NCBI GenBank assembly: GCA_025062105.1
Contig: JANXAQ010000064.1
Span: 1 to 37,848, forward strand
Direction of reading: 5' to 3'
From: Thermoguttaceae bacterium
GTDB taxonomy: Bacteria; Planctomycetota; Planctomycetia; Pirellulales; Thermoguttaceae
Length of the DNA: 37,848 nt
Of this stretch, positions 210 to 31,865 are shown in pieces. Made by a program: the position numbers and the translations under genes. Below the pieces are notes generated by a model. It saw only the letters and a list, made by a program, of their open reading frames with translations. It did not search any database and was not told the DNA's origin. Each line of letters opens with the position of its first letter. Position 1 is the first letter of the stretch.

Positions 210-334
210 GTAAGGTTTCCTTCATTAATGCCCCAGAATCCCCAAAAGCCCTGTTTTTAAGGCGTCGGAAGGCTAGGAGCCGGTCGGCCAAAACCCATGG
301 GAAACCAGCCAAATCCCCTTTTTAGGACAGCCTC
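210..334 (-). repeat. Family D element, main part (interrupted by family A copy 1)
   Basis: The reverse complement closely matches 2391-2510: both start with GGCTGTCCTA, continue with a block around GGGGATTTGGCTGGTTTCC, then GGTTTTGGCCGACCGGCTCC, and a TTAAAAACAGGG block. The left end of this copy is not resolved because family A copy 1 lies in it; the rest probably extends to about position 15. Confidence 0.75.
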
Positions 335-338
335 TAAG

Positions 339-486
339 CTCGACTTTTGCTATTTTTCCTAACTCCTTGTGTTTCCAGGAGTTAGGGCGAAGGCGGCGTT
401 TGTTCATACAATTTGCTAACTCCAATATTCATAAGGAGTTAGAGCATTCCTCTTCCGGGCTGAAGCCAAAAATGGCAAAAGTCGAG
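339..486 (+). repeat. Family A element, copy 2 (most canonical)
   Basis: A 148 bp element bounded by the CTCGACTTTTG / CAAAAGTCGAG inverted repeats and directly flanked on both sides by CTAAG, an apparent target duplication. Inside it are two separate hairpins with the identical 8 bp stem CTAACTCC/GGAGTTAG and 11 nt loops (stems 359-366/378-385 and 416-423/435-442). This gives an outer stem with two inner arms. Confidence 0.93.
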
Positions 487-491
487 CTAAG

Positions 492-639
492 CTCAATTCC
501 CATTTTTTTCCTAACTTCTTTTGCCTCCCCTCGCTGCGACGAAACCCCCTTTTGTGTACACAATTTCCTAAAGTCCAACAATTCCAATGAGTTAAAGCTT
601 TCCCCCTTCGGCAGGAGGCCCAAAATGGCAAAAGCCGAC
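492..639 (+). repeat. Family A element, copy 3 (diverged)
   Basis: Aligns along its full length with copies 1 and 2: it begins CTCAATTCCCATTTTT, has the CCTAACTTC and TTTCCTAA blocks in the same places, and ends AAAATGGCAAAAGCCGAC. It lies next to copy 2, separated only by CTAAG. The terminal repeats have decayed, so it is an older copy. Confidence 0.8.
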
Positions 640-2625: not shown

Positions 2626-2773
2626 CCCGACTTTTATCATTTTTCCTCACTTGTTTTACAACCAGACGCTGCAACGAACCTACCTTTGGTTCACACAATT
2701 TCCTACGCCCAACAATTTCAAGGAGTTAGAACTTTCCCATTTCGGCAGAAGACCAAAATTGGCAAAAGTCGCG
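2626..2773 (+). repeat. Family A element, copy 4
   Basis: Exactly 148 bp, with mildly mutated terminal repeats (CCCGACTTTTATCATTTTT / GGCAAAAGTCGCG). It is flanked directly on both sides by CTTTA, an apparent 5 bp target duplication. Confidence 0.88.
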
Positions 2774-3659
2774 CTTTAGCCTATGTTGGCTATTTTGCCC
2801 ATGGTGTGGTTTTCAAGGTTCTTTTAGAATTTAGCCCTTCTGATGGTGCTCCTGCCGAATCTTAACTTGGGGATAACAGCCACCCATTGGAGGGGATCGG
2901 CAGGTTTCTTCACTCGGCCGAAATGTTACCTGTTTAATTGGTTGGTCAAGCTCAAGGTTCCCACTTGGCAAGTCAACAAGGCATTTTCTTTTGTCGGGCG
3001 GAAATATTTCGTGGTTATAAAATCGACATGCTTGTCGAAAAAGTAACCATTGCCGGGGGACACCGCCCGTTTCCTGCCTCCGAATCGATGGGACTTTTGA
3101 GAAAATGAAGAAGAAAATAAAATGGGGATAACTCTTTTTCTTTGGTATAGTTTAAGTTGGGTCACAGTTCCGTCCAATGGAGTGGGGTTTATTTTTCCCT
3201 CTCCCCTGGCGGGAGAGGGAGAGGCTGATAGAGGAAACGAAATGGCCAACTGTCCTTTTTTGGCCCTGCAGCGGGCATTACCAGAGGTAATGCCGGCCTC
3301 TCCCAGGGAGGGAAGAATCAATTCCTCCCCTCGGCGAAACTATTACCATTTGGCCAACACTTCCGTACCATGGAGTGCTCTAATGGTTCGCCCCCCTTTT
3401 AGCTAGCTATCGACAGGGGCAGGGTCAGGAAAGAAAAGATGGCACGGTGGCCTTTTGGACCCTCGGCAGTTGATACTCTGAACTCTACCAGGCCTCCGGC
3501 TCAGAAAGGAGAAGGCGTTTTGCCGCTTGACTGAAATGTTACTTTGGCATGAAAAATGCAATAAGAGTCTTGGGTCCTCAGGACATTCAAAAGCTCTGAA
3601 TGGTTGTGCCACATCAAGGGCATTCAGGCACAATTCCCATTTCCCGGAAGGGCACCCCT
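2774..3659. other. Long intergenic region with perfect palindromes
   Basis: No credible gene. It holds a perfect 9 bp stem CCCTCTCCC/GGGAGAGGG at 3197-3219 (5 nt loop) and a second perfect 9 bp stem GGCATTACC/GGTAATGCC at 3274-3294 (3 nt loop). Similar phrases TTCCGTCCAATGGAGTG (3169) and TTCCGTACCATGGAGTG (3361) flank both hairpins. Neither stem is followed by a T-run on either strand. This may be a further palindromic repeat unit. Confidence 0.4.
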
Positions 3660-3896
3660 ATGCTAACCGCTTTAGAAGTGGTGGAGAAATACTTTTTAGA
3701 TGTTCGGGCGATGATTTTGGAACTGGCGGCGTTTTTAGACCGATATGACCGGGCGAGGGCGCAAGCAGCCGACTCGCCGCCGGAAGACCCCCGGATGGAA
3801 CTTTTGTATCAGGCCTTGGAAGTTCTGGTTGACCGAAGAGCAACTCCAAATCGAGTAGAACGACTGTTGATGATGTTCTCCGATCCGGCCGAGTAG
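3660..3896 (+). CDS. Small conserved hypothetical protein, 78 aa
   Basis: I do not recognise a named family. The reading frame opens further upstream at 3600, but the ATG at 3660 is preceded by GGAAGGG at a suitable distance and gives a well-formed acidic helical protein (MLTALEVVEKYFLDVRAMIL...). It is rich in Leu, Glu and Arg, with no signal peptide or membrane segment. The predicted helices (about 3-25, 42-57 and 62-73) suggest a small cytoplasmic helical-bundle or partner protein. The codon use looks like that of neighbouring genes rather than of the surrounding repeats, which is why I accept it. It has no operon partner, and its function is unknown. Confidence 0.6.
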   Translation: MLTALEVVEKYFLDVRAMILELAAFLDRYDRARAQAADSPPEDPRMELLYQALEVLVDRRATPNRVERLLMMFSDPAE

Positions 3897-4081
3897 ACGG
3901 GGCCTTTACTCCTGGGAGCCCGGCTGCTAGATGAGCACATTCCCTTTTCTTTGAGGGAAAAGCTCGCCGAGACAGCGGGCTGGTAGGCCAAAGCTTCTGG
4001 GGGAAACTTCACAGGGCAGCAAGGCGTTGGCACATCTTTTGAACCTCACCCATACCCACCCTGGAGGTCATTAGGAAAAGC

Positions 4082-4237
4082 CATGAGCTGGCTGTTGGCT
4101 TTTTTTTCACTAACTTGGTTTGTCTCTGGCAGTTATGGCGGATCCTCTTTTTGTTCACCCAATTGCCTAAGGCCAATACATCCAAGGAGTTCGAGGTTTC
4201 TGCTTTCGCCAAAAGGCCGAAAAGGGCAAAACTCATG
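4082..4237 (+). repeat. Family A element, degenerate copy 5
   Basis: The interior matches family A block by block (CACTAACTTGG, GGCAGTTATGGCGGA, TTTTGTTCACCCAATTGCC, ATCCAAGGAGTT, GGGCAAAA), but the usual terminal repeats are replaced by CATGAG...CTCATG. Just downstream, 4246-4267 carries another isolated family A-like end (TCGACTTTTACCATTTTCC). Confidence 0.5.
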
Positions 4238-4367
4238 CTAAGGTATCGACTTTTACCATTTTCCGGGATGCAGGCTCCTTTCGCTGTGCTAACATTTTGA
4301 AAATCGTGGTGTTAAGAAATTTACTGCGCAAAGATTTCTCAAATCCTACCTCAAGGCATTTGCGAAA

Positions 4368-4710
4368 GGAACCTCTGCGTAATTTAAAGGAGATATTTTT
4401 ATCTCGACTTTTGCCATTTTAGGCCTTCTCCCGGAAGGGGAAAACTCTAACTGCTTGTAACTATTGGACTTAGGAAATTATGTGAACGAAAGGAAGGCTC
4501 GTCGTAACTACAAGAAACAAAAGGACTTAGGGAAAATGGCAAAAGTCGAGTTTTATGCCATTTTGGCTTACTCTCCCTCTAATACAATATCTAGAGAGAC
4601 TAGCTTACAAGCACCTAATAGATAGTATGCATTTGGATCGAAGTGCCGAACGTCTCAAGAATCAAAAGTTCATAAATTTAACTGCATGTTCAGTATTTTG
4701 CAGCGGTTTC
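4368..4710 (+). repeat. Family B element interrupted by family A
   Basis: The left end is GGAACCTCTGCG and the right end ATTTTGCAGCGGTTTC. A complete family A element occupies 4403-4550. Removing it and one copy of the 6 bp TTTTAT duplication leaves 189 bp, the normal size of a family B element. The family B landmark GATATTTTTAT is the insertion site. Confidence 0.9.
4403..4550 (-). repeat. Family A element, copy 6, inserted in family B
   Basis: 148 bp in inverse orientation, with ends CTCGACTTTTGCCATTTT / AAAATGGCAAAAGTCGAG. TTTTAT directly precedes and directly follows it, a 6 bp target duplication made within the family B sequence ATTTTTATGCC. Confidence 0.93.
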
Positions 4711-4851
4711 GAAAAAATGGCCGAAGTTGATCCAAGGTTCCGTCGTCCGAGGCTGCAAAGTTCTGGTGTCATTATGCCCGGCATTGGAAGGGGAAAACAG
4801 TATCCATAAGAAAAAGACCATCTGGGTAGCTCTTTTTGAAGGACTCTCACT

Positions 4852-5727
4852 ATGCGAATCATTCAGCCGCATTATCACGGAATTGCCCGCACTACACAGG
4901 ATTACCAGCGGATGGCGTATGCGGGGGTGGTAGCTGTGGCCGAACCAGCCTTCTGGGCAGGATTTGACCGGAAATATCCGGAAACTTTTTTAGACTATTT
5001 TCGGCAAATCAGTGAGTTTGAACCCACCCGTGCTGCCCAGTACGGCATCCGGCACTTTTGCTGGGTGGCTGTCAATCCGAAAGAAGCGGAAAATCCTGCT
5101 CTGAGCCAAGAGGTGCTCCGACATATGCCGGAGTTCTTCCAAAAACCAACGGTGCTAGGCGTGGGCGAAACCGGTCTGCATAAATCCACCCCCAACGAAT
5201 GCGAAATCTTCGAGGCTCAGATCGAACTGGCAATAAAGTATAACCAGCTTCTGTTGGTCCATACCCCGCATTTGCAGGATAAACTTCGGGGTACCAAACG
5301 GATTTTGGAGATCTTGCGACGGATGCCGATTTCACCGGATCGGGTTTGGATCGATCATGTGGAGGAGCATACCATCCGGGCTTGCAAAGATGCGGGCTAT
5401 TGGGTGGGGTTTACTTTGTATCCAATAACTAAATGTTCACCATCCCGGGCAGTGGATATGATCGAACAGTATGGGATGGACCGAACATTGGTGAATTCGT
5501 CGGCCGATTGGGGGCCCAGCGATCCGGCCACCTTGCATGAGTGTATTCTGGAGTTCCGCCGTCGCGGCCATAGCCTCCAAGAAGCGATCGAACTCTTCCA
5601 TAATAATCCGGCTCGCTTCCTAGGGCAAAATCCAAAATTTGATATCCGCCCCATCCGAATCGAAGAATTGGAGCCTGCCTCAGGAGCAGAACCAGTGGGG
5701 ATCGGCCGATCCATTAGGGGGACTTAG
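4852..5727 (+). CDS. TatD-family metal-dependent hydrolase (EboB-like)
   Basis: A 291-residue amidohydrolase-superfamily TIM barrel. The TatD metal ligands are visible in order: H7-x-H9 after the first strand (QPHYHG), E106 in GVGETGLHK, H137 in LLVHTPH, H169 in WIDHVEEH and D219 in SSADWG. These fit a two-metal hydrolase of the TatD subgroup, which includes the EboB proteins of bacterial ebo clusters. None of the other ebo genes is nearby, so that assignment is only by resemblance. No signal peptide is visible, so it is likely cytoplasmic. GAAGGA lies 8 nt before the ATG. The stop codon abuts a family A repeat that starts at 5728, so the 3' untranslated region is built from that element. The substrate is unknown. 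Confidence 0.8.
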   Translation: MRIIQPHYHGIARTTQDYQRMAYAGVVAVAEPAFWAGFDRKYPETFLDYFRQISEFEPTRAAQYGIRHFCWVAVNPKEAENPALSQEVLRHMPEFFQKPTVLGVGETGLHKSTPNECEIFEAQIELAIKYNQLLLVHTPHLQDKLRGTKRILEILRRMPISPDRVWIDHVEEHTIRACKDAGYWVGFTLYPITKCSPSRAVDMIEQYGMDRTLVNSSADWGPSDPATLHECILEFRRRGHSLQEAIELFHNNPARFLGQNPKFDIRPIRIEELEPASGAEPVGIGRSIRGT

Positions 5728-6071
5728 CTCGACTGTTCCCATTTTTGGAAGTTCTTGGAACCTCTGTAAAATCTTGAACATATAGTGAACTTCAGGAACT
5801 TTTAATCCTCTAGCCGTTGGGGCCTTCTATTCGAAATACCTAACTATCTATTGGGTCCGTAGCACTGCTAGCAACACTAGATATTGGGTTAGAGGAAGAA
5901 TAAGCAAACATGGGACAAAAATATCCCCCTTCTATGATGCAGAGGTTCCTGTTTATTTTCCCGGACATGGGCTTTGAGGAATCTTTGTTCAGAAAAATCT
6001 CTACGTCCAATGTAGTTAAAGGGTTAGGATATCCAAGAGGGACGACACCCTAAAAATTGACAAAAGTTGAG
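5728..6071 (+). repeat. Family A element interrupted by family B
   Basis: The outer ends are CTCGACTGTTCCCATTTTT and AAAAATTGACAAAAGTTGAG, a family A pair. A full family B element fills 5757-5949. Without it about 151 bp remain, close to the 148 bp of family A plus a short duplication. It starts directly at the 3' end of the TatD-like gene. Confidence 0.83.
5757..5949 (-). repeat. Family B element inserted in family A
   Basis: 193 bp in inverse orientation. It begins GGAACCTCTGTAAAATC, contains the GCACTGCTAGCAACACTAG core and the ACATATAGTGAAC block, and ends GATGCAGAGGTTCC. No clean target duplication remains at its borders. Confidence 0.88.
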
Positions 6072-6114
6072 CTGTAGCCGCTCAGAGGTTTGGCTGCCCA
6101 CCTAGGTGAAGGAG

Positions 6115-14489: not shown

Positions 14490-14642
14490 CTCGACTTTTA
14501 CCATTCTTCGGCTTCTTCCGAAAGGAAAAAGTCTAACTCCAGATAATCATTTATTGGAGTGAGGAAATTGTGGCTAGAAAAGGGGCGGCTCGGCGTAACT
14601 GTGCTGCAAATAAACCAAGCTAGGGAAAAAGCAAAAGTCGAA
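14490..14642 (-). repeat. Family A element, copy 8 (mildly diverged)
   Basis: It begins CTCGACTTTTACCATTCTT and ends GGGAAAAAGCAAAAGTCGA. The inner blocks GAAAAAGTCTAACTCC and GAGTGAGGAAATTGTG occupy the same places as in copy 4403-4550. About 5 bp longer than canonical. Confidence 0.82.
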
Positions 14643-31719: not shown

Positions 31720-31865
31720 CTCGCGTTTTGCCATTTTACCCTTCTGCCGAAGGGGAAAACTTCTACCCCCCCGAATTATTAGACTTAGGAAATGATGTGA
31801 GCAAAAGAATGGTTTGGCCTAACCACTGGAACCAAACGCAGCTAGGGAAAGGGGCACACATCGCG
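31720..31865 (-). repeat. Family A element, copy 11 (right end decayed)
   Basis: It begins CTCGCGTTTTGCCATTTTA; the blocks CCGAAGGGGAAAACTTCTA, ATTAGACTTAGGAAATGATG and CAGCTAGGGAAAG are in canonical order. The right end, GGCACACATCGCG, has lost most of the terminal repeat. Confidence 0.75.

Follow-up and report, generated by a model that had tools for sequence, protein, structure and literature searches.

The 148-bp repeat studied here, denoted family A, is a non-coding type II MITE, very probably mobilised in trans by an IS701_3 transposase of the type encoded at C130 of the same genome. A single MITE family makes up about 5% of a bacterial genome, the likely source being a single intact transposase gene. 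As a family it is apparently undescribed; the kind of element, a MITE, is already known.

The window, i.e. the whole stretch of 37,848 nucleotides that was analysed, belongs to a 6.07-Mb draft assembly of 345 contigs (G000). A profile HMM built from family A detects 13 copies or fragments in it, with E-values from 1e-43 to 4e-6, and yields no match in 757 kb of reversed sequence used as control. All window copies listed in an earlier sequence-only reading were recovered, and one unlisted fragment was added (4246-4356, minus strand). The features are as follows.

339-486, plus strand: reference copy of family A, 148 bp, HMM score 140.9 bits
334-338 and 487-491: direct repeats CTAAG around the reference copy, identical 5-bp flanks
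339-357, plus strand: left terminal inverted repeat of the reference copy, complementary to 468-486 with one mismatch
468-486, minus strand: right terminal inverted repeat of the reference copy, exact CTCGACTTTTGCCATTTTT on the minus strand
359-385, plus strand: inner inverted repeat, arm 1 of the reference copy, CTAACTCC / GGAGTTAG, 11-nt loop
416-442, plus strand: inner inverted repeat, arm 2 of the reference copy, CTAACTCC / GGAGTTAG, 11-nt loop
62-209, plus strand: full copy, 148 bp, 146.6 bits, flanks CTAAG / GTAAG
491-639, plus strand: copy with decayed left end adjoining the copy at 339, 98.4 bits, aligned over 505-638
2626-2773, plus strand: full copy, 148 bp, 116.1 bits
4090-4237, plus strand: copy 4082, left end decayed, 98.1 bits, aligned over 4104-4234
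4246-4356, minus strand: fragment, the one previously unlisted, 33.7 bits
4403-4550, minus strand: full copy, 148 bp, within another repeat, 147.5 bits, 6-bp flanks TTTTAT / TTTTAT
5728-6071, plus strand: copy split by another repeat, HMM part 5953-6071
14490-14642, minus strand: diverged copy, 81.2 bits
16967-17111, plus strand: diverged copy, 101.4 bits
19278-19365, plus strand: fragment, model positions 61-147, 25.5 bits
21932-22078, minus strand: full copy, 147 bp, 135.3 bits, flanked by GTATAA (6 bp) when read on its own strand
31720-31865, minus strand: diverged copy, 94.2 bits

The A-type ends of the split copy were located by blastn end matches at 5728-5746 and 6053-6071, and another copy, 96.6% identical to copy 21932, lies at L116:6157. 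Other high-copy repeats occupy positions 230-330, 2390-2530, 4340-4400, and 5750-5950 of the window (e.g. GGATAGGAGCCGGTCGGCCAAAACCCATGGGAAACC, AAAGGAACCTCTGCATAATTC...TATTTTTATACCATTTTGG). Single 14-mers from them reach as many as 50 occurrences in 757 kb, and these repeats look like further MITE families, some of them nested with family A.

That the element recurs throughout the genome is borne out by a search, proposed in the sequence-only reading, for the 19-bp end CTCGACTTTTGCCATTTTT; with up to two mismatches it gives 1,114 forward and 1,106 reverse matches (2,220 in 6.07 Mb), as against none for the reversed 19-bp pattern used as control. In 757.6 kb of G000 sequence, the profile HMM finds 341 copies, of which 189 are complete in length. 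Since this sample consists partly of contigs chosen because they bear the repeat, its unscaled density of 0.45 copies per kb (6%) was rescaled by end matches, yielding ~2,300 copies genome-wide, ~1,200-1,280 of them full length. A second sample of contigs picked by number holds 48 copies in 194.7 kb (0.247 per kb) at an end density of 0.66 of the mean, and the same scaling leads to ~2,270 copies. Both samples put the share of family A in the genome at ~4.7-4.9%, and within a genome carrying this load the window is unremarkable. The highest figure in a 2024 review of prokaryotic MITEs is 711 copies, for ERIC in Photorhabdus luminescens, and the review states that plant MITE loads reach 8-10% of the genome, with nothing comparable observed in prokaryotes (PMC10969869). 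The copy number of family A exceeds that of every prokaryotic MITE quoted there, a comparison that leaves room for a higher published case elsewhere.

In size and ends, family A agrees with a type II MITE (148 bp, non-coding, 19-bp terminal inverted repeats). Its near-constant length, remarked on from the window copies, holds for the sample as well: the mode is 148 bp, and 116 of the 189 full-length copies measure 147-148 bp. The two identical inner stems described for the copy at 339-486 are present there, but family-wide they are confined to one small subfamily (5 of the 189 sampled copies), the overall consensus having TAACTTCT/AGGAGTTA as arm 1 and CTAACTCC/GGAGTTAG as arm 2. Likewise, the compensated stem change pointed out in copy 62 is genuine, but it runs through one whole subfamily (21 sampled copies) and therefore reflects few events.

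Movement has left its trace at the borders of the copies, where a target-site duplication is found (5 bp, sometimes 6 or more). Flank-to-flank identity peaks at exactly 5 bp (65%, versus 46% with flanks shuffled between copies); the 5-bp flanks are identical in 49 of the 189 full-length copies and match in at least four of five bases in 94, with CTAAG and CTTAG as the commonest duplications and CTWAG as the preferred target. When joined flanks were compared without gaps to unoccupied sites of G000, 14 elements matched with 5 bases removed, some of them weakly, as against none with no base removed and 1-6 for other lengths. A clear empty site exists for the element at L043:5724, inserted within another A copy (L112:18894-19008, 98.3% over 115 bp), and for that at L126:3531, inserted within another repeat (L125:2195-2284, 92%); the site of window copy 4403, with its 6-bp duplication TTTTAT, is represented by L130:6481-6564 (84.5%). 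Copy pairs that are 95-98% identical lie in unrelated flanks, which indicates that some transposition was fairly recent, and the mean identity of 80% to the family consensus marks most copies as old. Together with an intact IS that shares the same ends and with congeners that lack copies at the syntenic loci, these duplications, empty sites, and near-identical copies at unrelated loci strongly support the earlier view of a mobile unit recognised in trans.

Within ORFs of at least 150 aa, 4 of the 341 copies are found versus ~201 expected at random, a deficit that arises partly by construction, as the insertion itself disrupts ORFs. Copies per kb of spacer amount to 1.39 between convergent, 1.18 between tandem, and 0.92 between divergent genes. 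The target often stands in a palindromic context, ACAGCCTCTWAGAGGCTGT, which equals the end of another repeat, GAGGCTGTCC (window 326-338, L046:6114), and family A seems to favour insertion adjoining the GAGGCTGTCC repeat.

The full-length relative with the same ends and a transposase, for which the sequence-only reading proposed to look, is present at a single locus, L080 (G000:C130): among 26 DDE_Tnp_1 matches in G000 it is the one flanked by two A-type ends, none of the other loci lying between such ends. This IS701_3-type element comprises 1,611 bp between its A-type ends (705-2315). The left terminal inverted repeat of copy 339-486 recurs on it, and its ends match the MITE consensus at 19 of 19 (left) and 18 of 19 (right) positions. 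Similarity is restricted to the terminal 19-23 bp, the interior giving no significant match; matching ends with unrelated interiors make family A what PMC10969869 calls a type II MITE. The ORF of L080 scores 251.2 bits against NF049999 (NCBIfam IS701_3; cut-off 170), 83.7 bits against Pfam DDE_5, and 67 bits against NF033540 (transpos_IS701), below the cut-off of 150. In the alignment with its relatives, the transposase retains the catalytic residues D, D, and E, and translation probably starts at the ATG at L080:949. Besides this intact copy, the genome holds one relic of the IS (C259) and terminal remnants on C52 and C156. The flanks of L080, CTTAG and CTAAA, match only partially. Pairing of ends in the first 400 kb revealed no autonomous element, just three ends lying outside A copies there.

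A single-protein scan of GTDB contigs for relatives of the IS returned nothing, and an alignment-based scan of these contigs found distant ones, both in an Armatimonadetes MAG and in further Planctomycetota, Blastopirellula marina DSM 3645 among them. These relatives have ends of the type YTCRACTTTYGC, are mostly 1,413-1,498 bp long, and are bordered by duplications of CTTAG (L164, L180, L216) or CTCAG (L174), as read from the MITE boundary, two bases inside the printed inverted repeat. IS701_3-like elements with CTCGACTTTCG ends were also seen in Streptomyces and other Actinomycetes (L190, L192, L198, L200, L202), which makes this end type much older than the planctomycete MITE.

For IS701 elements, PMC2266710 gives a length of 1,400-1,550 bp and, in nearly all cases, a 4-bp duplication. 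The partner resembles them in its IS701-type DDE transposase, which passes NF049999, and in ends partly like the published consensus ---YACT-Y--YR (PMC2266710), but it differs in its length of 1,611 bp and in a 5-bp CTNAG duplication. Since both the MITE and the IS relatives duplicate 5 bp, the partner is called IS701_3-type and not a typical IS701. Correia, ERIC, QMITE, and Chunjie, type II MITEs treated in PMC10969869, share with family A the short, non-coding unit with terminal inverted repeats, target duplication, intergenic location, stem-loop folding, and a resemblance to the helper limited to the ends, whereas ~2,300 copies, ~5% of a genome, and an IS701-type partner set family A apart. 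Within the literature collection searched, no paper covering both MITEs and IS701 was found.

REP/REPIN elements are likewise present in high copy number, palindromic, intergenic, and moved in trans. Family A, itself palindromic, very abundant, and intergenic, might on these grounds be taken for a unit of this sort, dependent on a RAYT (Y1) transposase, yet target duplications, long ends shared with a DDE element, and a near-constant 148-bp unit are not known as traits of REP. RAYT represents another transposase class, and its elements are not known to form a target duplication and are much shorter. This reading, hardly credible beside the near-constant 148-bp unit and the 19-bp terminal repeats common to family A and a DDE IS, was rejected because of the clear 5-bp target duplications and the DDE nature of the partner transposase.

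To judge from the shared ends and the shared target preference, it appears to be the C130 IS that moved the copies. Its DDE transposase would bind the CTCGACTTTTGCCATTTTT ends in trans and mobilise the 148-bp unit, and insertion would proceed by a 5-bp staggered cut, preferably at CTWAG, producing the 5-bp duplication (sometimes 6 bp or more); the chemistry of this step is deduced. Selection would then remove copies in genes, while those in spacers would pile up and decay neutrally until they filled ~5% of the genome. The observation that congeners without the transposase carry just diverged relics counts for this explanation, and the extreme ratio of one intact IS per ~2,300 MITEs counts against it, as do the imperfectly matching flanks of the C130 IS itself and the 4-bp duplication published for IS701. 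Further helpers may have been lost or be absent from the draft assembly. A different helper in place of the C130 IS, such as a second DDE element bearing these ends but now lost or unassembled, would fit the single intact IS remaining, the C259 relic and the C52 and C156 remnants as earlier IS701_3 copies, and an assembly in 345 contigs; it is nevertheless unlikely, for the genome has no second DDE_Tnp_1 locus between A-type ends and the C130 ends match almost perfectly. With a load of ~5%, one intact transposase gene as likely source, and congeners for comparison, it becomes testable in bacteria how a non-autonomous element can come to exceed its helper a thousandfold in number.

Two congeners, G001 and G002, with 82-84% DNA identity to G000 (one gene) and a gene order common to part of the window, serve as natural controls bearing few or no copies. 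Copies are missing at their syntenic loci: the spacer at ~3,900-4,800, housing copies 4082 and 4403, spans ~880-910 bp in G000, measured between the aligned blocks, as against ~40 bp (G001) and 60 bp (G002), and the spacer at 5,676-6,107, housing copy 5728, ~430 bp versus 76 bp in G002. G001 contains diverged relics (at least 51 matches, with 68-77% identity to the G000 consensus where full length) and G002 only few; a transposase of the C130 type was found in neither. ORFs of at least 150 aa cover 59-69% of the G000 samples, compared with 80% in G001 and 77% in G002.

The suggestion that the repeat might also be a folded RNA or DNA element fared poorly, and the claim is weak. The family consensus folds with an outer stem joining both ends and the inner arms inside, the inner part reaching a z of about -4 versus mononucleotide shuffles. 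The covariation test proposed in the sequence-only reading fails within the family: across copies, 82.2% of stem cells are paired versus 82.5% in shuffled data (covariation score 0.077 versus 0.082), RNAalifold predicts zero consensus pairs, and the majority of stem changes disrupt pairs. The top pairs of an APC-corrected G statistic are subfamily-diagnostic positions, not stem pairs. Tree-based counts of co-change give 7 compensatory events in arm 1 versus 0-3 when the arm is slid, and no excess in arm 2. Subfamily consensus sequences retain 6-8 of 8 pairs per arm, with one clear compensated pair among them (C82-G100 to G82-C100). On a rival reading, family A is retained by the host for its usefulness, as structured RNA or as regulatory DNA (a terminator, an RNase III site, or a protein-binding site), and owes its spread to this, mobility being merely its means of arrival. 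The nearly exclusive intergenic location, the well-folding consensus, and hairpins at matching positions in MITEs of other genera would agree with this. It is, however, quite improbable in view of covariation not exceeding shuffles, the RNAalifold result, mostly pair-breaking stem changes, no match in the window to Rfam 15 at gathering scores, the empty syntenic loci of the congeners, and an orientation relative to genes (87 versus 67) without clear bias.

In the mobile, non-autonomous element favoured here, the inner inverted repeats probably act in cis. The first guess, at somewhat less than even chances, would be that they serve transposition, for example in end synapsis or by binding a host factor; an RNA-level insulating role is a more doubtful guess, and an ancestral residue a third.

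Related or analogous elements occur in small numbers in some other genera of the family. Low-copy MITEs of their own, 151-153 bp long and sharing the ends of family A, exist in G003 (L232, L252-L262), where 16 copies or fragments of a 151-bp element are found, and in G020 (L055, L236), where the flanks read CTAAC/CTAAC and CTAAG/CTAAG. Hairpins lie at 22-46 and 78-104 in family A, at 20-50 and 71-97 in the G003 MITE, and at 21-49 in one and 80-98 in the other G020 copy, and their stem sequences differ between genera (arm 1 stems TAACTTC, CGCAACT, and TCACAAGTT). With regions fixed from the G000 family, arm 1 gives p-values of 0.0005 (G003) and 0.003 (G020a) and arm 2 of 0.16 (G003) and 0.014 (G020b); significance is not reached for the other G020 arms. 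As this comparison involves few sequences and was made after the hairpins had been seen, it is a lead and not proof for pairing, more suggestive than the result within family A. Matching hairpin positions with different sequences in two other genera indicate that the two-arm architecture may matter, and the layout offers a concrete hypothesis on the role of the interior. Tentatively, the interior could be a selected device, given that the MITEs which depend on this IS701_3 subgroup retain, in three genera, a near-fixed length of 148-153 bp and fixed hairpin positions despite differing stem sequences. If so, folding into two arms, as a cruciform or as RNA, would favour either transposition or tolerance by the host, and it would be the basis of the highest MITE load so far described for any prokaryote.

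Two further segments of the window are shared with both congeners. A ~50-bp non-coding stretch at 2997-3053 is 88-90% identical in them, above the neighbouring genes; it has no match in Rfam and is a possible regulatory site or small RNA. A small ORF of ~79 aa at 3660-3899 shows ~78-79% DNA identity in the two congeners.
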